Source of the DNA: a virus
Length of the DNA: 64,000 bases
Reading direction: 5' to 3' (one strand)
IMG/VR virus record: IMGVR_UViG_3300042563_000635
Span: 34,898 to 98,897 of that record
In this document: piece after piece, positions 34,101-58,054 of the stretch
Layout: the number at the start of each line of letters is the position of its first letter
Numbering within the stretch: position 1 is the first letter of the stretch
Notes under the pieces: model-generated
The model's database searches: none
Told to the model about the DNA's origin: nothing
What the model saw: only the letters and a program-made list of their open reading frames with translations
Made by a program: the position numbers and the translations under genes

Positions 34101-35602
34101 ACTTTATTTGGGGAAGTACCGTCCTGGTAGTACAGTGTATCTAGAGGAGCGCTTATGTAGGGAATTAATAAAATTATACCTGACGTATTTCTATAGAAAT
34201 TTCTAGTACCCCACTCAGTACCAAAAGTAGCAGTAATTTTTTCATCAACTGGTATTTCTGATGATTGAACTAAACGTATTACTGGATCAGAAGGATCACC
34301 TAATAATTGAATAGAGTAAAAATATTCATTTACGTTTGTATAGTAACCTTGCTCGTATTGACCTTGATTAATGACCCCGGTCATTGATCCAGATGCAGTA
34401 GACAATGGTAATACTGAACCAGCCGGTGTAGATGATATAGTAAATTCTGTAGAATTTAATATAGACTGCACGTAATAAATTGTATTTGGTAATGTGGTTG
34501 AATATGATGCTATGCCACCAAAAGGATTGCCATTAAAAATTATAGCATTTCCTACAGTTAGATTGGCTGTACTATTACAAGTAATAGCATCTGTTACACT
34601 ATTAGTATTAGTAATGCTGATAGTTTTTAATTCAGTTAGATCATTATTTTCATCATATGGTGTATAGTCAAAAAAGTTTGATACGTATCCAACTTCGTTT
34701 GGAATTCCAGTGTTGTAAAACATAACTCTCAACCCATCGAGTGAGGTTATACCATCAATACCATTTACTAAGTCACTTAGTCTAGCACCATTAATTGAGG
34801 CAAACGGTAAAGTAGAAACTAAGCTTACTGTGTTGTTTCCAGGGAAGTTATATTCATCCTGTGCATCATTGGGAGGTACAGTAAACGTAACTAAGCCTTG
34901 AGTAGCACCGTTGTTGTCAACTCCTAAAATTTCACGTGTTTGTACATTAGGTTGAGTAGGACTGTATCCTGTAACTCCTGGTTCACCTTGAATCCAAAAT
35001 TGAGTTGATTGATTTACTGCAAAGGTGTAAGTTCCGCCTCGTAATAATGTCAGTGTGGGATTAGTGCTACCTAGGCCATCCGCAGACGTTAATGGAACAA
35101 TATTGTACCCGTTGGGTAAATCATAAACTACGTAGTCGTTAGCATAAAAAACAGTTTCACTAGAAACGATAACTCGTTCAGGGCCTTCTGGTATCCAGTA
35201 GTACTGATTAAAGTTAATAATTTTATCTAGGTTAGTAAAAGAATCCCAAGAATAGAATTGGCTATTAAACAATCTGTCATTATTGTTTGTTATACCACCT
35301 TCTAGTTTTAATGCATCAATTATACCTGGATAACTAATAAAGTCTTTAGCGACAGATTCGTTTGTTTTTGTAAACACAACACCCGGGTCTAATTGATAAT
35401 CTGTGCGGGTCTTAGTAGGTTCAGTTACATAGTAATCTTTGGCATTTATGCCATAACCAAACTTTGTACCAATGTACCCTTGTATCTTTTTTGTTTCAGG
35501 TTGAGCTACGATTTGATCTAAAGTCGCGGCTAAAAACTGTGAATTGGTTGTTGTCTGAAAAATTTCAGGTAGAAAATTTAGTGTTCTTATTCTTGATGCC
35601 AT
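16121..35602 (-). CDS. Giant virion structural protein, 6,493 residues
   Basis: One unbroken frame of 19.5 kb, giving a protein of roughly 700 kDa from average residue mass. The N-terminus (LNFLPEIFQTTTNSQFLAAT, then LFNSQFYSWDSFTNLD) resembles large tail/baseplate proteins encoded after gene 6 in T4-like aquatic phages. Residues about 2470-3180 hold FG-GAP-type propeller repeats (GYSIATEYDSNKIIIGTPY, SEILIGAPF). Residues about 5045-5440 hold a BNR/sialidase-like propeller (WVAVGEG, KIVAVGEDGVIYISDNG, YVAVGDAGLIKVS). About fifteen copies of a 75-90-residue module ending YYVxxI...FxIsxTxgG...LstasGsM are scattered through it. It lies 10 bases after gene 6, so a baseplate-attached fibre or wedge role, possibly in place of T4 gp7 or gp10, is inferred. 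Confidence 0.85.
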   Translation of the reverse strand: MASRIRTLNFLPEIFQTTTNSQFLAATLDQIVAQPETKKIQGYIGTKFGYGINAKDYYVTEPTKTRTDYQLDPGVVFTKTNESVAKDFISYPGIIDALKLEGGITNNNDRLFNSQFYSWDSFTNLDKIINFNQYYWIPEGPERVIVSSETVFYANDYVVYDLPNGYNIVPLTSADGLGSTNPTLTLLRGGTYTFAVNQSTQFWIQGEPGVTGYSPTQPNVQTREILGVDNNGATQGLVTFTVPPNDAQDEYNFPGNNTVSLVSTLPFASINGARLSDLVNGIDGITSLDGLRVMFYNTGIPNEVGYVSNFFDYTPYDENNDLTELKTISITNTNSVTDAITCNSTANLTVGNAIIFNGNPFGGIASYSTTLPNTIYYVQSILNSTEFTISSTPAGSVLPLSTASGSMTGVINQGQYEQGYYTNVNEYFYSIQLLGDPSDPVIRLVQSSEIPVDEKITATFGTEWGTRNFYRNTSGIILLIPYISAPLDTLYYQDGTSPNKVGIIRLIESNISNTLNVEDDILGNAQFTSTNGVAFTNGLKVSFQGDVIPKSYLFGEYYVEGVGAAIELLPVENFIAPENFTASTYVAWDTLGWDTAAWEGNSYVPVTPDYITISRNSIDKNAWSRSNRWFHIDVINATATYNNNPNLVTLYATSAYKAKRPIIEFYPNIKLFNSGSEGKDPVDFIDTRTTDAFSLVAGQENYYPDVEVYTAYTGIITSTDYTPIRAFSGAADATNIITTVTGTTGFRVDDLIIFDGVTPSLGIVNGSTYFVAEIVSGTEFKISSIKGGDVVDFSNISSGGTFAWTPQSTTLTIDADDVTGTMTVGQYITDSTNQLPRNTQILSITGSTTLTIEVGWDEGSSGYIPTTTESSFVSTDTTNDNYSLFEGARVIFTQDTDTSVKNKIYVARFSIIAESSIPVITLTEVDNGNVHPDQQTVALRGYFNQGKEFWYDGLEWIDGQQKTTLNQPPLFDIYDSNGISFGDPTIYLGTSFIGCKLFAYGIGAGIDDTVLGFPIKYSAIDNVGDISFDVSLNADTFDYVSGTNPITQKINTGYVYQYNNRIEYERQLGWQTAVSPSVQYQIFEFNYDPLNPTTSYVCDIAKSSADSTNWPTIEVYINNTIVSHGEYTVTVGPDTTTVVLNENPILETVIQILLLSDQVSNTAYYSIPNNLNNNPLNADIVVANIGDIRGQYQSSFYNNPNSTGKVFGPNNYRDLGNMVPWGDKIIQNSASLVLPGAFLRKQEHNLFNALMFNSKEYVKFKNLLAYTVNNSDYVQRYDPATMLDDALDQITSSKTDNQSFFWSDMLPSKAAYVSNTYSFANSLDVSIYPLSRVYDYTTANYYGVLVYLIRTQSGITTTQQLIKGQDYTISATAPSLTVSLDLQPGDVITIKEYNQTYGSYVPNTPTKLGLYPAYLPEVILDSNYTNPTYFIRGHDGSYTKLYGEYDTTTELLSDFRDQVSLEFELRVYNNLKISSVIPIKEYEILPGFFRDIDYSYPEWLEIYSNGFLNWVGQNRLNYKTQFYNAGNNYTYNYFQSGNAINKAVITQGYWRGIYQYFYDTTTPNTTPWEMLGFTEMPTWWTNRYGPAPYTSDNLVLWSDLAEGIDWNNGNPVVIPEAVRDGLLEIIPVDSAGNLLPPIDTVVGSYNQKLFQRDWKVGDGAPVEFSYRRSSTYPFDLMRTLALTKPAEFFNLGVDIDHYKYNAEFNQYLVNNRSHLRMSDIDVYGTGTPVTSYVNWVVDYEKQIGIDATTNITEMLNNMDVRLVYRLAGFSDKTLLKFFVEKSTPNSANASLLIPDESYSVLLYDNQPFNRIIYSGVIIQTASSGGFTVYGNSQTYAYFKTLKPKFGGKYETIDVEDLSIRVTPDHFDKEQIVPYNTAFYTAQEVAQFLADYGAYLTSLGMKFDDMENEIEINWAQMIAEFLYWAQTGWSAGSIVTLNPSAKKLMIDKDSNIVQPLTLQQSNFILNQNLYPIQLNDMSVVRQGTAFSVAALNAGDVLSYGQFNLSNFEHGIVFDNVTLFGDIIYNLTTGLRQNRIALRGTKSADWNGTVNASGFIYNQDNIKEWNRTAKYTKGEIVKYKNKYWVATKVIQASELFKEADWKRTDYDEVQKGLLPNSSTRSYESSLYYDIDQANLEKDADLLSFSLIGYRPRDYMALADLTDITQVNVYKNMIKNKGTLNAASAFKGATLPQGGIDYEIFENWAIKAGEFGGVLNNNFVEFRVNEKSMTGNPAIVGLTQGIYNQGVQQEVPLYSLFNYGRTITNVNVLPTTTETISTLYPDAGYVNYNDIKMSAFFYSQLGVAVDKNGSIVPIQDFFVRDYVWLANYLEQWQVYTPVSMGQVTTVKNNLNETITVTFNKPHNLTQYQPFAIVNFDPAIDGYYLATIVIDQNRVLVNKVLDTSIKTINGQGVAMKFTSQRVATPAEIANLPLTEAEFRKNTVWVDTDASGSWGVYRKNINYTLENQVTKASSQSLGSAVAISSQLGYVISDADLGQVYRYTFNDLNNAYELVQTLVGNPTFGSTISYAGDLYAIAETTGAASSVKLYQLQSTTTSDDLVLVQTIPYAAALDDLWGTAISISKNQNWIYISDIDNNTVHVYQRSNIVTTAGNFESTETYIINSIGTTDFTSIGATSNDVGTVFIATGVGTGTGVATKITFNAVTTIDGDALGLTNSGDKFGYSIATEYDSNKIIIGTPYKDEGSVDKWGRTYVFQRLSQNLEIQYNTVSPNTQTLQLAWTPSSTEFTVTDTNATTDRITLSTLPNPATDVDKPIMFIGSGFTGTEITTSKVYYIATVSGYDITIKESRESATVVPLATVAGMTNAKAYLQDDTLFVSNNGTLIQDSNYAVISDTLVYTASLNAGDIIDVNGHEITLLQNIAPAEAPQTGAQFGTSVTTNNTASEILIGAPFQLSTQTSEGVVYRYTDPGAAYGMYVGTTDCNVTTTRKILLNGFLTYIPVGNATVVANAINSSNITNVAATAINGKLVILLVDNSLAPINEKLCLSITDTTTLSELGITVFDMTQEIVCPHNIGPTQFGTVVKFNEYGSFVASAPVGTRYSATTFDFVDDENQDNDTLFDNNTTSWIDESPNFGAVYMFDYISQYNESLLNLGKFVYAQSVNSPNLAYTPFNTYDQATDVTTSNQPLYGTALDFNNYGVIVGTPGDVGSTTGSEYAGSATVYNNSTGVKDWALYRYSAPIVDINKIFNIQLFSAESNETLINMDYIDPLQGKILGAARENIDIISNVDPANYNNGDTVTGGLVWGADHVGKVWLNTKNLRFVNYHQNNDVSYNSQYWGTLFPGSDVSVCSWVASNVLPGEYRGPGIPVDVTSFSIQYVIDAAGALAPVYYFWARNTNTIFSNNGKTLADSIIASYIENPKASGISYFSPILPSVYGLYNSGDYINANDSVLHIGFATGNNDDVSHEQFNLIRSGFPSDFLPGVPNTTNEIPDSLYDRLLDSLCGVDETGAIVPNPYLPKAVQTGILARPRQSFFLDRFTALKNYLQYANSILTQFPITEIRQSSFLTSSGEFYDTRDYWEFINWWATGYDDNIKSALQVPIYADLSTLSVIPGTIVTVSTNMSGKAETYIFELTGNWRRIGLENGTIRFKSSLWDYESVRLGYGDNFFDTDTYDVYPSEETRKIVRALNEQIYTDDLLVYRNRSLILLFEYIQSETTESQNYLPWLNKTSFIDVAHTIRELRPIEVFQTDNQDFLSGYMNEIKPYHVVIKEFLFKYTGSEVYSGNITDFDLPAKYDKSQAQFITPQLVYNSGNGVNQFTPDNPIWEEQEYSQWFENHGLSITGELDAHITTLASYISLNTKSFAVDNAQGLPINGILKMGTEQIGYSSVDRALNVLAGLTRGVNGTPITEHIPGENIFMDLPAVLLLDGGRGYIEPPKVTAYIDPVLYPAPTKPAVLNAVMNLDSVLRVDVVDPGQGYTVLPKIIIDSSIVVPFSSTDVNTFSSTIQIYAPLLQTGDLIQYKVGTNSTPIGGLENDQWYYINVLETVPSVVLGFYDNYADCINDHDRLPLFSTGTGANHTVNLGAKASAISSSLPIRQNDIVLRFDRTAYTSKVIEWVTGRYYGAFFAGTYSNSESIASSSITLQSTQPPIADILASAQGVAFEITDLRNERTVTYSSFIRNVHSTYASNDVVRLTLQDDGSGNPNASGGTNGFYIGMPVTFIGDIGSSGIVNEQVYYVNSIVNQTDFTLSINSTGSPLLPLTNWTVGPAGLECFVGEVTDIAVITVNYPGILDVTSTLAVTNNITVPLNVTGTGGTAGFYIDLPIFFTGTDPTKIQNGVFGGIIENEVYYVTTVVDNQTFTMSETQNPQTFNVTATVASNDTVLIDGDTNKLIVNEPIIFNTMILAGVESATFGGLVSGTTYYVSSIVSPSAFQISATVNGAVLPLSDVSPASNTSALVTSQKNTVTLTTATGNSMVVNVSLPVSPGQVNGQLFTLYETSGQYPGLDGTNGNLITRGVAALIGERTSGIDGLPVDVNSIVMTNYNAGDTVARGLTNIYVNMPIEISEDLFFTNVLVPGTTYYVVDKGTIEIEVTNTSSSTNELTCDTTEMLFADMPITFSGSGIGGAEIDVEYWIKEIVSDTRFTITNTPGGLELTLSTASGLMTGTGLPYIKVAGNLGDPAEYPGDSQQSASITAANPAVITVANAPENGTTVIFRNGTVPSGMSLGTRYYVRNANSTTFNVSLTASGALINTSSGSLSTSTMVITTETTVDQTPLTVAEFDVSYILGGYRVLISNLGTGYAVDNTIVIPGNEIGGTSPLNDLTVTVNSIGTNGEITSVICNGTVAGDSNQYYLKVISSTEFELYQNQLMTVPVSGLSLPYVGITEATVTAVSSANDRLTIGDTSVFDVNDAVVFTGSVQTNITNITEGETYYIYDIPSSTQFRISTVPGDVTTIVNIVTTIGVNFTMAKSGSFALLPEPFIFNQSIVKYNNRVYVCVISNNDTEFVFGKWELLTSGDRRLNAMDRVFGYYQPTDNMPGKDLSQLFEGVIYPNSTYLGNAFAPDDQYPIDTILQDQAFYPADVDIHAVVWDGVRYLAAADMTDYSSVISSLTGDEWSIQKLANSPINTTDMIYAGGYYIMTTNNPATPVFRSIDGITWTTNGYYTPYGSVPYDTTTYDFTALSISSLNLNSVGYRDNLWVAVGEGIVSSDDTYIWRQRFTFSNPTLTNILYGVNGVSVPNYIGFIAVGKGQQLDYSTGVGITIDVNIVLTSTDGINWNQIPALSSKGFYGVTHNSSKIVAVGEDGVIYISDNGANWLGVNEVTVISANDSSNELNVTSTAGFIVGDQVKFSESFNVFVAGTTYYVVNIISLTQLQVSATPGGLPVTLNVFDPSETTYMFAPRTTSLVDVYYANNRYVAVGDAGLIKVSIDGYSWAQHSSGTSENLNGITYNSTSGEWIAVGDNNTILISSDNGVTWTSSSVFAIQPTIYDVQGAEFTYGYGPEELVPGVVTDNITMTVATRPGTNWDETIYAHVGYNVVSIEYTPTSGTQTLYSFDIGNLYNVQTPAQIAVYIIDGTTGLSTAIYETLNYTINWIDYTITLNTPLTFSPVANNLRVDVYEVGNGNQLVKSSTKSDPIRINSSTGWNEIYVNCNYSGQIYDGSGIIRPDTQPVDVIATMTDSTNNSILCASVEDFVLNSPITFQGSVFGGIAEDTTYYVKTISYVTNRITISTTINVSTGTAGSTLALTDGTGSMNVVIRVGYGAVWTSPIIYHNGSKLLIGTTSTITRTKASNNAITTNTTSGMVIGERIVFSDTMFGGVLLPQTTYYIKSIVDPNEFTVSATLGGPVIALTNATGGAEFISNDYAFGIADNGISASIIFSTGDYDDNVDYISYTLFGETTPTQYGYTIPEVQVISATGATGPFSLDNFVGDNNPDNAIVEVNGLRLLNTTAYTIDSNNNEITFVSAPTLGSTIAVTTFNNTDRQYLNTQYNITGVTVANIVDVNNTITPVAAITNCTASNGTTEVITCVSTTGFVPGQTIQFKGATSFGDIAIDGTVYYVRAVLSSTTFTIQNESGTIINLSTGTGLVIAYVGGQSAVRVTTGIAHGLTSGDVVRIDGTLGSVQLNNNTYYVHVINSTQVDLYIDTPYNPGLSAINNPVTAISSYVSGGYIWESTAYIIQNLEVTDTTNDPVLGNYLTVASTETLIIGTPIVFTGAVFGGVSANTTYYVKSIVSVTEFSITATRDGSEVILSTVSGSMYVTQWEQDNVDRLWVTVNGYRVPSTRLRLNANNEVSILASITTLDSVTITSMMPSATPNEEVFLINVNQIGTNVAYRANTQTRTWLVEPLSNTDTVMYVDDVTRLTDLVTQNEIVPAAVDGYFYIGLEADKRIISNVSVVNNTIGQTIASENYEIVIVNLSPVLKIAAGAYISVGNQVTITILEGNLLYVNGEQIKFSSVDLANNTISGLQRGTNGTGAQFFIPLYSEVYGLLSNNQMSIQDYQEVWNSNVYNTVEGDPLQISTTPSAIFLRGDIN

Positions 35603-51923: not shown

Positions 51924-52154
51924 TCAGAAGAACGGGAGTCCAGACTTCTTAGTTACTTCTAGGTTACCGTCTATTAGTTCTTTTAATTGCTCACGTTCGG
52001 AAGTGGACATATTCAGAACATCTTCATATGTCGCACCTCCCCTCATATACCATGCCATGGACATGGCACTTTTCTTTATCTCTGAGACGGCTTTTTCATA
52101 ACCATCCAGTAGCTTCTGTATGCCTTCGGAGTCAAGGCGGAGAAGCGTTAGGCG
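51924..52154 (-). CDS. 51: gp51-like -1 frameshift extension of the gp26-like protein
   Basis: A 76-codon frame with no start codon of its own near its beginning. It lies in the -1 frame relative to the gp26-like gene and overlaps its last codons. At the join, the heptamer T-TTT-TTC (52160-52154) is in the correct phase for a -1 slip, two codons before the zero-frame TAA. The product would be 274 residues of the gp26-like protein plus 76. The extension contains EGIQKLLDGYEKAVSEIKKS, MSMAWYMRGGATYEDVLNMS and the terminal TKKSGLPFF, which I recall as a conserved ending in T4-like phages. The layout recalls the G/GT tail chaperones of other phages. Confidence 0.72.
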   Translation of the reverse strand, partial: RLTLLRLDSEGIQKLLDGYEKAVSEIKKSAMSMAWYMRGGATYEDVLNMSTSEREQLKELIDGNLEVTKKSGLPFF

Positions 52155-52978
52155 AAAAAATCTGATGTATTCAATGTAAATGGTTGTTCGTACTCATTAG
52201 TACAGTGTACACATTTAATTCGTAATGGTTTGATTTCCGTTTGTGATTTTAAATTTGCATTGTAATCACGCAATGTAACATACATATTTTTATCACAGTT
52301 ATTCAAGAAATCTAAGATGAATTCTTTGTTATCTACTCGGGCAGAAGGAGTATTAATGTATTCGATAGCACCAGTTAACAACTTGATTGTTAATTGAGTT
52401 ATTCTCTTTAGTGCTTCTTGGCCACGTGTTTTACGAACTTCTTCATCAGGTTCGTTTTCTAGCATGATAAACACACGTTGAATTTCAATTTGACCAATAC
52501 TGGCCTCGTTCATTTCTTTATATGACAATGGTCTAAATTTGATCTTTAGATCATTGGTTTCTAGTTCAGTGTCATAATTTCCAGGTCTCATCTGACTCAA
52601 CAGGTTGATGAGGTTTATACCATATTTTCCAATGTCCTTACATGCAGGGCATTCGGATTCGATCTCCATATCATTTCCGCCACCAGCAGCACGAATGCCA
52701 ATTAGGATAGCATCTAAGTCCATACTATTGATTGCCCATGGGTCTTTGATGTTTGGTACACAGCTTTTCATTAATTCTGCCATAGCTGTACCGTTGTACA
52801 GTGCGTCAGGTGTTTTTGTAGTAATCTCATCTATAGCTGTCATAGGGAAGATTGGGATCTCGCCGTTTTCGGGCATGTCTATTACTCCCTGCGGATAATA
52901 TTTACCACCGCTAGGTAATTTTACATATACTGATGGACGACGGAAATACTGTTTCAGCGGGTTGTTATCTAATGCCAT
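52148..52978 (-). CDS. 26: Baseplate hub assembly protein gp26-like (T4_baseplate family)
   Basis: A 276-residue protein. ALYNGTAMAELMKSCVPNIK and DLDAILIGIRAAGGG are the family signature of T4 gp26-type proteins. Two CxxC pairs (C110/C113 and C256/C259) form a probable zinc site. T4 gp26 is needed for hub assembly but is not abundant in the virion, consistent with a chaperone. The 3' end holds a slip site leading to a gp51-like extension. It lies next to the tape-measure gene, divergently transcribed, as expected for a tape-measure chaperone. AAGGAAC precedes the start, and a long leader includes a hairpin at 53000-53017. Confidence 0.82.
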   Translation of the reverse strand: MALDNNPLKQYFRRPSVYVKLPSGGKYYPQGVIDMPENGEIPIFPMTAIDEITTKTPDALYNGTAMAELMKSCVPNIKDPWAINSMDLDAILIGIRAAGGGNDMEIESECPACKDIGKYGINLINLLSQMRPGNYDTELETNDLKIKFRPLSYKEMNEASIGQIEIQRVFIMLENEPDEEVRKTRGQEALKRITQLTIKLLTGAIEYINTPSARVDNKEFILDFLNNCDKNMYVTLRDYNANLKSQTEIKPLRIKCVHCTNEYEQPFTLNTSDFFA

Positions 52979-53018: not shown

Positions 53019-53039
53019 CTAAATACAAGTATATTTATT
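53019..53039. promoter_or_regulatory. Two facing late-promoter-like boxes
   Basis: Plus strand: CTAAATA at 53019-53025, 25 bases before the tape-measure ATG. Minus strand: AATAAATA at 53039-53032, reading towards gene 26. The boxes face each other 6 bases apart, so the two initiation regions overlap. Both fit the late box form used elsewhere in the window. Confidence 0.5.
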
Positions 53040-53050
53040 TGGTAAAATAC

Positions 53051-56000
53051 ATGGATGAAAATAATCAAACCAGTCAAGAAATCTTAGAACAGCTACGCAT
53101 ACAAACGGATGCTGTTAACTCCTTAGCCGGTGTTTTTGTAAAAACAATGACTACAGAACAGCGTGAGCAATGGATGCTTGACCAAAACGTAAAGCGTACT
53201 GGAAATGCGTTTGATAAATTAAATGATAATCTAAACAACCTATCCGAAGCTGAAAAAGCTAGAATTGCTGGGGAACGAGAGGCAGCGGCCGCAACTAAAG
53301 CACTCAAAGAAGCAGGCGCCTCAGCCACTAAAGGACTATTCAATCTATCTAGTACACTATCAAATACATCAGCAGACCTGACTAAGTGGGGTAGTACAAT
53401 CGGCGGCGTAGGTGATGTTGCAATGTCTGTTGGAAAACACTTTGGTGTTTTAGGTAATACAATTGGAGGTGTAATTAAGGGTTTTAGTGTTATGGCCCCT
53501 ATGTTACTCGACCAAACTCAGAAGATGCTCAAAGCTTTTGATAGCTTGAGTGAAATGGGCGGTACTACTAACATGACGACTGAGCAAGTCAGACAACTTG
53601 GTCGCGCCTCAGGATACACAGTAGATAACTTAGATAAATTTGTCAATTCTGTAAAAATTGTCGGCAAAGATATTAACGCATTAGGTGTTAATTCTGCTGA
53701 AGGTACTAAGCTGTTTGGCAAGATGACCGCAGTTGGTGAAAAGAACATACAATCTTACAATCGTTTAGGAATTAGTCAAGAGCAATTAACTGAAGCTCAG
53801 GCGATGTATGTTAAACAAAGCTCTAATGCTGGTATGGCTTTGTCAAAAAGTCCCAAAGAATTACAAAAAGCATCATTGGAATATGTAGATCAGTTAGTCA
53901 AGCTCAAAGAATTAACTGGTATGTCGATAAAAGAGAGTCAATCGGCACTTGATGCTGCAATGGCTCAAGAAAACTTTAACGCATACATACACACTAAATC
54001 TATGGAACGTTCTGAGTTGGAATCACGGGCGGCAAAAGAAACTGATCCAATACGACAAAAAGAATTAAAAGAGAGAGCGGCACAAATAGATCAAGTCATC
54101 AAATCTAAACAAGAAATGGCTATGTGGTCTCAGTCTAACGAAAGTGCAAGAGATTCTACTGCGTTGCTACAGAGTATTTCTAGAGACAGTGCACCAGTTT
54201 ACACCCAAGCAAATGCTCATTTCTTGACGGCAGGTAGAAATATTGAAGGTGTTGCAGAAAAACTAAACAAAGGACAGAGCGCATTACGTGATTATCAAGG
54301 AGAAATTGCTAAATCTACTACCAATGTTAACAAAAAGATGGGCGAAAGTATGTATGCATACGGCGACGCCTCGAAGCAGATTCAAGAATCTATGGGTGTT
54401 GATAACCAGGCAAGAAAAAATGCCGCTAGATTCATGGAGTCTCAGACAGAAGAAGGTAAAAAACGTATAGCGGCAGAAGATAAAGCCACAGAAGAACAGA
54501 TAAGAAGACGAAAAGAACAAGGCGAGATTTTAGATGCTGCTGGCAAACCAATGCGTGATGGTGCAAAAGATACAGAGAACACTGTACTATCATTGGAACG
54601 TGCATTACGTGGTCTAAAAGACGATTTATTGGGAGCACTGAATCCATTTACTAAGTCAACATTTGCAGCCAGCGCCGCTAGTACAGCCTTAGCAGCCGCG
54701 GCAGGAATAGCCGCGTATAAGTTAGGTAAGATGGGAGTAGGCTCCGCAGTAGGTGGCATTGGTGACTTAATGAACAAAGGTTTGCCTGGTCGTGCCGGCC
54801 CAGCTGCCGGATCACTATCAGGTTGGAAAGCAGGCGCAACAGCAGCACAGGGTGCAGTAGGTGCAACTAGTGCAGTAGGAGGTGCAGGATCTGCCGCAAC
54901 AGCCGCAACAACAGCCGCATCAGCGCTATCTAAATTAGCAGGACCATTAGCAGGATTGTCAAAGGCAGCACCATTGATCGGTACTGCAATGTCAGTTGGT
55001 TCAGGTGTAATAGATGCATATCAAGGTATAAAGAAAGCTGATAAAGACCTTAAAGAAGGTACGATAACAAAAGAAGAAGCTAGAGTTGAAAAGGGCGAAG
55101 CAGTTGGCGGTGGTGCAGGAACAGCAATTGGTGGTACAGCCGGCGCACTAAAAGGTGCAGCCGCAGGTGCCGCAATTGGTTCTGTTGTTCCTGTATTAGG
55201 TACAGCAGTAGGTGGTATCATTGGAGCCGCATTAGGCGGTTGGCTGGGTAGTAAAGCAGGTAAAGCTATTGGTGAAGTTGCTGGTGGCGGCATCGCTAAG
55301 ATGACTAGTGATGCTGACAAGAAAGTTGACGAAGCTTCTAAGAAAGCAGAAGCTAAGAAAGACGATAATCTTGCTAAAGATACCAAAGCAGGAAGTGATG
55401 TAGTTAAAGTATCCATTGTCAAAGTAGAAGATTCAAATCTAATGAAAGCATTAGGTGCAATGACACCAATGACAAAACTAGGAACACCGGAATCTACAGG
55501 AAATGTAGCTACTAAATCAGTAACCAAATCCGAAACTAAATCATTTACATTTAGTGAGATGGAACTTGCAAAGAAAGATGAAAAATTATACAAAGAATAT
55601 CTTGAAAGAAAGAAAGAATTATTTGATAAAGAATTGGAATCACGCAAAAAGAATCTTCCTAAAGACGCATCAGCACAAAGAGTACAGGGAGCTGAAAATG
55701 TAGCACGAATGATTGCTGACATGAAAGCAAAAGAAGAATTTGCAGAACGTGCAGAAAAAGTTGGCGCAGCTAAGATAGATAGACCTGTACAGGAAGTAAA
55801 AGCGGTGCCCCAGACAGCAGTAGCAAAAGCACCGGATCAACCGACTGTAGTAGCAAAAGCACCAGAAGCACCAAAAGATACAAGTAATGATGCTATACAA
55901 AGAAAAGTAAAAGAACTAGAAGAAACACGAGAAATATTTGAGAAAAAGGGCCCAGTTTCAAAAAGCGCACAAAGCGAACTTGCGTACAAAAATATCCTAC

Positions 56001-58054
56001 AACAAATGGATAGAGCAATTGCAAATGAGAAAGCAAAGGCAAATGCACCCAAAGCCTCAATTGGTGGTATATTCGACGGACCTAAGTCAGGATATCCGGT
56101 AGAGCTACATGGTAAAGAAATGATTACCCCGTTGGGCACTGGTATGAAAACTGCCGGATTGAGTGATAACTCCGCGGAGCGTGATGAAGAATTAGAAGAA
56201 GAAATTGAAGCACTAGCAGAGTTAAAGAAAACCATGCGTGATACAGATGCTAGTTTTGACAAGTTATCTACTTCTATCCTCAAGCTAAACAAATTAGAAG
56301 AAGAAAAGCTTGAAGCATCAGAGGATCAAGTTGACGGACTTAAAGGTGCGAATGATAAACTCAAAGATGTATTCAGGTCAGTTGGATTTGACTTGTCTAA
56401 ATTTGCAAGCAACATCAAAGTAGTAACACAGGAAACAGGTAGTGGTACAGGAATAAAACCACCTGAAGGCTTAGGCGGAATTTTTGGCAGTAGTGGTGGA
56501 GGTGGAAAACCGGCAGAAAAACCCGCAGATAGTGGCTTGGGTATGAAGCCTCCATCAGCACCTCCTCTAGCAGGTATGGGTGGTGGTACTGGAGTAAAGC
56601 CAGCTAAAGACCAAGATGTTAAACAGAATCTAGGTGACGTTAAAGCCGCATTGATGAAGCGTGGCATGGGAGATGAAAAATATCTTAATGCTGTGTTGGG
56701 CAACGTCATGAAAGAATCCGGTGGCAAGGTCGTCAATGAAAATCTTAATTACAGCAAGACAAGTAATGAACGTATTCGTAGCATATTTGGATCAAGAGCA
56801 GCCGGAAAGACTGATGAGGAATTAAACAAAATCAAGTCTAGTGAAGAAGGCATGGGCGAGTTCATGTACGGCAAGGATACTAAGATTGGTCGTAGCATGG
56901 GTAATCTTGACCCCGGTGATGGATGGAAATATAGAGGTCGTGGATACATTCAACTTACCGGTAAGAGCAACTATGCACAAGCATCACAGGCAGTGTTTGG
57001 TGATGATAGACTAGTTAAAGATCCTGACTTAGTTAATGATCCTAAGGTTGCGGCTGAAGTTGTAGCCTGGTATATGGAAAAAGGCAAGGCTAGAATGGCT
57101 AAGGCTATGGGCATAGATGAAAAGAATATGTCCCAACAAGATGCAAATGTATTAGCTACTAGTCAGATTGCAGGTGGAGATGTTCGCAAGAAGGGCAGTT
57201 ATTTAGCCGGTGAAGTCATGAATAAGGTTACTGCATATGCAGGCTCTAAAGATATTCAAGGAATTCAACCATCATCAGGTGGTACAATGGTCGCATCTGC
57301 CGATACTAAAAAGTCGGACATACCAAAAGCACAAAAAGGCGGAGTATTTGAGGGTCCAGAAACAGGATACATTGTTGAATTGCATGGCAATGAGACAGTA
57401 ATACCTACTGATAAGATTGAAAGTTTAGCTAAGAAAGAACTTGCATCTTTTAGTAAGATGGCGGGGAATGTAACTACTGGTGGAGATACTAATGAAATTC
57501 CTGCAATAGATACTACTGCGATAGCTAAGAAATCAGTAAAGTTGTTCTCAGAAGAAATGGGTCCGACGTTCGCTGGCATGAATGAATATACTGGATACAA
57601 TGCAGGTCCTATGTCTACTGACTTGAAAGCTGTTCAAGGAATGGCAAGTAAGATTGGGGCATATGACGAAAAAACTCAGACAATCACTGACACTGAAGCT
57701 TGGAAGAAGATATTACATTCGGGAATGGCAACCAATTACGACATGGGCCCGGCTAAAGTGGGAACAGAACAATTTGGCCCAGATGCTGGCAATATATTAG
57801 GTGATAGATTGAAAGAGATTATGGATATGGATAAAACATCTCTTACTGATGCTATCAAGCAATTGCAAGAAGAATTCAAGACTGTTGTTCAACAACTTGG
57901 AAAAGACTTAGCTCAAAATGCGGCTGCACCGATAGTAGAAGGAGCAGATGACAGTGTTATGGCTGAAGTCGCTAAATCAATGACTGAATTGGTAAACAAA
58001 ATGAGTGAAAGTAATGATATACAAGGTAAGATATTACAGTATTCACAAGTTTGA
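53051..58054 (+). CDS. Tail tape-measure protein with GH19-like lysozyme domain
   Basis: A 1,667-residue protein from the ATG at 53051; the frame extends to a TTG 4 codons earlier without support. The long helical, Ala/Lys/Gln-rich body and an Ala/Gly hydrophobic segment at about 686-750 are typical of tape measures. Two copies of a tape-measure motif, GGIFDGPKSGYPVELHG (about 1005) and GGVFEGPETGYIVELHG (about 1430), flank a GH19-type domain at about 1185-1400: VMKESGG with the candidate catalytic Glu, ENLNY, GDGWKYRGRGYIQLTG and a C-terminal VAWYM. The enzyme would open peptidoglycan during DNA entry. T4 uses gp29 without such a domain. It is followed by portal gene 20. Confidence 0.86.
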   Translation: MDENNQTSQEILEQLRIQTDAVNSLAGVFVKTMTTEQREQWMLDQNVKRTGNAFDKLNDNLNNLSEAEKARIAGEREAAAATKALKEAGASATKGLFNLSSTLSNTSADLTKWGSTIGGVGDVAMSVGKHFGVLGNTIGGVIKGFSVMAPMLLDQTQKMLKAFDSLSEMGGTTNMTTEQVRQLGRASGYTVDNLDKFVNSVKIVGKDINALGVNSAEGTKLFGKMTAVGEKNIQSYNRLGISQEQLTEAQAMYVKQSSNAGMALSKSPKELQKASLEYVDQLVKLKELTGMSIKESQSALDAAMAQENFNAYIHTKSMERSELESRAAKETDPIRQKELKERAAQIDQVIKSKQEMAMWSQSNESARDSTALLQSISRDSAPVYTQANAHFLTAGRNIEGVAEKLNKGQSALRDYQGEIAKSTTNVNKKMGESMYAYGDASKQIQESMGVDNQARKNAARFMESQTEEGKKRIAAEDKATEEQIRRRKEQGEILDAAGKPMRDGAKDTENTVLSLERALRGLKDDLLGALNPFTKSTFAASAASTALAAAAGIAAYKLGKMGVGSAVGGIGDLMNKGLPGRAGPAAGSLSGWKAGATAAQGAVGATSAVGGAGSAATAATTAASALSKLAGPLAGLSKAAPLIGTAMSVGSGVIDAYQGIKKADKDLKEGTITKEEARVEKGEAVGGGAGTAIGGTAGALKGAAAGAAIGSVVPVLGTAVGGIIGAALGGWLGSKAGKAIGEVAGGGIAKMTSDADKKVDEASKKAEAKKDDNLAKDTKAGSDVVKVSIVKVEDSNLMKALGAMTPMTKLGTPESTGNVATKSVTKSETKSFTFSEMELAKKDEKLYKEYLERKKELFDKELESRKKNLPKDASAQRVQGAENVARMIADMKAKEEFAERAEKVGAAKIDRPVQEVKAVPQTAVAKAPDQPTVVAKAPEAPKDTSNDAIQRKVKELEETREIFEKKGPVSKSAQSELAYKNILQQMDRAIANEKAKANAPKASIGGIFDGPKSGYPVELHGKEMITPLGTGMKTAGLSDNSAERDEELEEEIEALAELKKTMRDTDASFDKLSTSILKLNKLEEEKLEASEDQVDGLKGANDKLKDVFRSVGFDLSKFASNIKVVTQETGSGTGIKPPEGLGGIFGSSGGGGKPAEKPADSGLGMKPPSAPPLAGMGGGTGVKPAKDQDVKQNLGDVKAALMKRGMGDEKYLNAVLGNVMKESGGKVVNENLNYSKTSNERIRSIFGSRAAGKTDEELNKIKSSEEGMGEFMYGKDTKIGRSMGNLDPGDGWKYRGRGYIQLTGKSNYAQASQAVFGDDRLVKDPDLVNDPKVAAEVVAWYMEKGKARMAKAMGIDEKNMSQQDANVLATSQIAGGDVRKKGSYLAGEVMNKVTAYAGSKDIQGIQPSSGGTMVASADTKKSDIPKAQKGGVFEGPETGYIVELHGNETVIPTDKIESLAKKELASFSKMAGNVTTGGDTNEIPAIDTTAIAKKSVKLFSEEMGPTFAGMNEYTGYNAGPMSTDLKAVQGMASKIGAYDEKTQTITDTEAWKKILHSGMATNYDMGPAKVGTEQFGPDAGNILGDRLKEIMDMDKTSLTDAIKQLQEEFKTVVQQLGKDLAQNAAAPIVEGADDSVMAEVAKSMTELVNKMSESNDIQGKILQYSQV

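Follow-up and report, generated by a model that had tools for sequence, protein, structure and literature searches.

A probable programmed -1 ribosomal frameshift in a gp26-like, putative tail assembly chaperone gene of an uncultured phage

Does the gp26-like gene of this virus encode one protein or two? The window analysed here, a 64,000-nucleotide stretch of IMG/VR record IMGVR_UViG_3300042563_000635 (positions 34,898 to 98,897), carries a gene that stops one codon behind a T-rich heptamer, with a second reading frame open beyond it. The first-pass annotation, made from the letters alone, proposed a programmed -1 frameshift joining gp26-like and gp51-like parts, and named loss of the heptamer in homologues, or synthesis of the extension from a start of its own, as what would speak against it. 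The proposal is supported by the phase of the heptamer, its conservation, purifying selection on the extension and a downstream hairpin. With a probability of about 0.93, the locus is a tail assembly chaperone (TAC) gene whose decoding involves a programmed -1 shift of the ribosome, in the style of lambda G/GT. The anatomy and its conservation are observed; from them, we infer slippage of the ribosome.

Locus and reading frames

The following features were delineated:
52978..52148, minus strand: short form (TAC-N, gp26-like), 276 aa, PF12322 T4_baseplate / phrog_150 (ORF and profile matches)
52193..51924, minus strand: -1 frame, open from stop to stop, 89 codons (frame reading)
52160..52154, minus strand: slip site T_TTT_TTC, the last in-phase heptamer (sequence; X_XXY_YYZ phase)
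52154..51924, minus strand: -1 extension (TAC-C, gp51-tail-like), 76 aa plus TGA (translation)
52146-52141 / 52117-52112, minus strand: outer arms of a predicted hairpin, GCTTCT/AGAAGC (folding)
52138-52134 / 52126-52122, minus strand: inner arms of the same hairpin, GCCTT/AAGGC (folding)
53039..58054, plus strand: tape-measure-like tail protein, 1671 aa, with a glycosyl hydrolase 19 domain (phrog_167, phrog_1047, phrog_181, PF00182)

The 276-aa ORF matches PF12322 (E=4e-13, 49.9 bits against a curated Pfam cut-off of 24.5) and, among the PHROGs, phrog_150, "baseplate hub" (E=6e-15). It is the only PF12322 gene of the 98.9-kb record, which may be incomplete. A search for solved structures similar to the short form returned none resembling it. 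The 3' end of the ORF reads GAT TTT TTC GCC TAA; the heptamer is followed by GCC (52153-52151) and, one codon on, by the zero-frame stop TAA (52150-52148). The slip heptamer is thus present and in phase, as first described: it fits X_XXY_YYZ in the zero frame and lies just before the stop, the layout of programmed -1 ribosomal frameshift sites. To judge from the codons, the two Phe-tRNAs on T_TTT_TTC can both re-pair following a -1 shift.

From the slip onwards, the -1 frame is open for the 76 codons claimed (52154..51927, with TGA at 51926-51924) and encodes RLTLLRLDSEGIQKLLDGYEKAVSEIKKSAMSMAWYMRGGATYEDVLNMSTSEREQLKELIDGNLEVTKKSGLPFF. The predicted fusion counts 351 aa (275 + 76), and the 350 residues given at first have to be corrected. 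Judged by its substitutions, this extension is evolving as a protein, under purifying selection in its own frame: over 238 pairs of at least 70% amino acid identity, pN/pS was 0.21 in the -1 frame versus 1.09 in the other phase tested. What had been called conserved-looking is indeed conserved (WYMRGG...TTKKSGLPFF). Direct family scans of the 76-aa extension against Pfam and PHROGs gave no significant match. In the window, the earliest in-frame ATG, GTG or TTG of the extension comes at codon 31, within the conserved domain, and on this point, too, the first-pass annotation is borne out; a conserved -1 coding frame without a start of its own is what a frameshift leads one to expect. The absence of a start holds for this window and part of its group (the first 20 extension codons are free of one in 21 of the 66 jumbo-type loci), while many relatives have an ATG.

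Slip site and predicted stimulators among relatives

TTTTTTC is found in phase in 147 of 148 distinct fused homologues, those of jumbo phages, cyanophages and KVP40-like phages among them, a count that leaves out loci without an in-phase T6 run (Ackermannvirus type) and that, the loci being interrelated, does not represent 148 independent events; their synonymous sites are far diverged (pS ~0.58 for extension pairs). Adjacent Phe codons elsewhere in the same genes read TTTTTC in only three of 89 cases. Among IMG/VR contigs, 78 readable loci, at identities down to 33%, have TTTTTTCG in phase and followed by the same -1 frame. The arrangement recurs in the named phages Atu_ph07, 121Q, Munch, Serratia BF, Phosso and Paride (TTTTTTCA), as well as in cyanophages S-SSM7 and S-RIM8, the KVP40-like PC-Liy1 and the Ceceduovirus Asswx_1. 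Slip site and phase are therefore conserved into very distant relatives, which settles in its favour the first of the two points on which the proposal had been made to depend. The single departure in the set is Xanthomonas phage XacN1, with TTTTTTT at the same place (L101:2795-2801).

The cyanophage-type loci keep the heptamer, and in the follow-up set only the Ackermannvirus-type locus L188 is without it. The homologue in L096:2500-2700 and L188 (Vibrio phage SD25, Ackermannviridae) has CAC GTT TTT CGC TAA TG at its 3' end; the standard in-phase heptamer is absent, and the ATG of the downstream frame overlaps the stop. In this group, either another kind of slip (compare GTTTTT in PMC12846349) or coupled re-initiation may operate.

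A small stem, GCCTT/AAGGC, had been noted 15 bases downstream of the heptamer and called farther away than usual. The stem stands, the remark on its distance does not: it is the inner part of a larger predicted hairpin (52112..52146, MFE -13.6 kcal/mol), whose outer arms begin at a distance of 7 nt from the heptamer, as is normal for stimulators of -1 shifts. These values were computed on the copy L009, which has the same sequence here and encodes the same protein; against synonymous resampling, that copy reaches z -2.70, with none of 100 resamples as stable. Among relatives, the hairpin lies 4-7 nt downstream. Folding z at 0..60 nt past the heptamer is -1.67 in the jumbo set and -2.1 in the cyanophage set, over an upstream background of mostly -0.1 to -0.6. 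Compared with synonymous resampling, the mean z is -2.87 for the jumbo type and -2.96 for the cyanophage type, versus -0.63 and -0.79 in a control stretch. By these folding scores, the hairpin is conserved beyond coding demand.

The named structure pairs in register in 77.8% and 77.0% of cells (two sets) and in at most 55.5% and 47.7% when slid along the alignment, although a structure derived from the same sequences tends to beat its slid versions. Its covariation score exceeds all 500 shuffles, a result that related sequences may give without structure. A stimulatory RNA element is expected 5-9 nt downstream, and the 7-nt spacer agrees with this, but RNAalifold gave no consensus pairs in either alignment (jumbo or cyanophage), because some members lack pairs; the case for the hairpin is accordingly built on the localised folding scores, the synonymous resampling and the pair counts of the named structure. 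In several distant members, e.g., L081, L084, L092 and L100, the predicted hairpins are weak.

Most cyanophages have a further element. An SD-like GGAGG is located ~10 nt upstream of the heptamer in 69 of 80 distinct cyanophage-type loci, when 20.4 are expected from codon usage. The same element was sought in the jumbo-type group of the window and found in none of 66 loci. In most of these loci (L103-L182), the GGAGG(G) sits in Glu-Gly codons.

It may be asked whether the extension is instead a separate small protein, produced by re-initiation or translational coupling near the stop. Cyanophage records do list a gp51 of their own of 45-63 aa, and jumbo phage records a "hypothetical protein"; such a gene is called by annotators because many relatives have an early ATG, at extension codon 2 and overlapping the stop in 13 of 66 jumbo-type loci, and within the first 10 codons in 72 of 80 cyanophage-type loci. 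However, the late start in the window and the jumbo-type loci without any early start speak against it, coupling leaves the invariant TTTTTTC, its phase and the hairpin unexplained, and T4 gp51 has the same tail fused in frame. A free protein is thus very unlikely. Slippage of the transcribing polymerase on the T6 run, with an inserted base and a fusion read from an altered mRNA, would account for the homopolymer, but six residues are few for a slipping polymerase, and ribosomal slippage fits the invariance of the last C, the strict phase of the codons, the hairpin behind the heptamer and the SD-like element of cyanophages; we regard this explanation as most improbable. A homopolymer is also a classic site of sequencing or assembly error, and a frameshift mutation could have broken a decayed gene; yet 148 distinct fused proteins, from IMG/VR contigs and named isolates, have the same arrangement, and the extension is under purifying selection. 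The homologue comparison already refutes error or decay, whose probability is negligible. All three alternatives were thus rejected.

Relation to T4 genes 26 and 51

T4 gp26 (208 aa) and gp51 (249 aa) both belong to PF12322, and their profiles match each other in hhalign at 99.5%: gp51 is a gp26 paralogue carrying an additional C-terminal tail. This tail matches the cyanophage extension (hhalign 98%, E=2e-13) and that of the jumbo set, the group of the window (88%, E=3e-6, over 32 columns only); none of 100 column-shuffled profiles scored as high. The link between extension and gp51 is made through profile comparison only, the direct scans having remained blank. The long product of the locus would hence be the short one extended by a C-terminal domain akin to the gp51 tail, which is the TAC-N/TAC-NC layout. 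The description as gp26-like plus gp51-like parts was right, because the -1 part matches the gp51 tail and the 5' part falls in the gp26/gp51 family; the paralogy of gp51 itself is a refinement.

Unlike the present locus, T4 has two separate genes, and its gene 26 ends GAG TTC TTT GAG TTA CTA TAA, without a slip heptamer. A tree built from the short domain places gp26 and gp51 of T4, 44RR, PF-CE2, phiP4-3, SFHK24 and PhT2 in one group (100/98), separate from every frameshift phage; this tree is unrooted, some of its rows are long, and gp26 does not form one clade inside the gp26/gp51 group. The simplest reading of these sequences would be one duplication in the T4 branch, accompanied by loss of the slip site. 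We lean towards a TTTTTTC cassette that was ancestral across T4-related phages and was replaced once, in the T4 branch, by duplication into 26 (short) and 51 (long). Its stimulators appear to be lineage-specific: the hairpin alone in jumbo phages, the hairpin and the SD-like element in most cyanophages. A recoding signal would then have been replaced by gene duplication inside one virus lineage.

Frameshifting is said to have been found conserved by Vladimirov and colleagues in several T4-like groups, T4 using genes 26 and 51. Their article (Vladimirov, Gautam and Davidson, Virology 2022, 566:9-15), represented here by two papers that cite it (PMC10885494 and PMC12846349), is the cited source for T4-like TAC genes. 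According to the PRFect paper (PMC10885494), which cites it, some T4-like phages hold a short TAC gene and a long fused gene instead of frameshifting. PMC12846349, citing it as well, names polyT runs as known signals for a -1 shift in the TAC-N genes of such phages. As far as these citing papers go, the resemblance to our locus is close: short and long forms come from one PF12322 gene with a polyT -1 slip at its 3' end, and T4 itself has the long form as a separate fused gene. What differs is the source of the present locus, a group of uncultured phages. For T4-like phages, the principle has been published before, and this locus adds one more case; the first-pass annotation read the locus correctly in extending the lambda rule to the 26/51 pair, but, in view of the 2022 article as cited, the extension is not new. 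With that article known through citing papers, no earlier report of the downstream hairpin or of the cyanophage SD-like element was found. The gain lies in the breadth of TTTTTTC and in these two elements, which may exceed the published account.

Other recoded genes offer partial parallels. In the TAC locus of Vandenendeviridae and Andersonviridae, a -1 extension also ends TAC-N and is usually annotated as hypothetical, but the motif is GTTTTT, not TTTTTTC (PMC12846349). As in E. coli dnaX, the heptamer is followed by a hairpin and, in most cyanophage members, preceded at ~10 nt by an SD-like element. In dnaX, the shift shortens the product. Here, in contrast, an unrelated gene is concerned, the shift lengthens the product, and the jumbo members are without the SD-like element.

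The entries for "gp51 baseplate hub assembly catalyst" in two cyanophages (L093:2693-2884 and L094:2732-2869) are probably -1 tails of gp26 and not free proteins, and the same probably applies to the genes called "hypothetical" that follow gp26 in 121Q, Munch, Serratia BF and Atu_ph07. Annotations could thereby be corrected in many genomes, where the -1 part is listed as hypothetical or as a free gp51.

Tape-measure-like neighbour and putative chaperone role

Homology, the tape-measure-like neighbour and the literature point to a chaperone role. In a 2010 review, gp26 and gp51 are hub assembly chaperones, gp51 being essential and of unknown function (PMC3004832). Seen as the long form of a frameshifted chaperone, now fixed, gp51 acquires a testable role.

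That the gene lies next to the tape measure, as first noted, agrees with the divergent ORF 53039-58054, which matches phrog_167 (tape measure, a weak match at E=3.5e-8), phrog_1047 (tail lysin, E=1.5e-13), phrog_181 (endolysin) and PF00182, and is syntenic in 51 relatives. TAC genes typically adjoin the tape measure gene, and the product of this ORF is the presumed client of the chaperone.

In lambda, the slip heptamer is G_GGA_AAG. The present locus resembles lambda G/GT in its short and -1 long forms, its association with a tape measure and an extension without its own start. Unlike in the lambda G-GT-H operon, the tape-measure-like gene is on the opposite strand, and the two systems are likened by manner of working alone. 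Most ribosomes would end at the TAA and yield the 276-aa short form. A minority, pausing at the hairpin 7 nt downstream with two Phe-tRNAs on TTT TTC, would slip one base back to TTT TTT and read 76 further codons, giving the 351-aa long form. If lambda gpG/gpGT are taken as the model, the tape measure protein may be coated by the short form, and tail-tube subunits may be recruited by the C-terminal tail of the long one; T4 would make the equivalent two proteins from a pair of paralogues, gene 26 for the short and gene 51 for the long form. In view of the literature and the syntenic tape-measure-like neighbour, the best-supported mechanism is that a major short and a minor long form act on the product of this neighbour, as gpG and gpGT act in lambda, from which the binding steps are transferred.

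A glycosyl hydrolase 19 / endolysin-like segment occupies approximately residues 1190-1360 of the 1671-aa protein (PF00182, phrog_181). With a lysin segment in a tape-measure-like chain, tail length and cell-wall digestion may share one chain.
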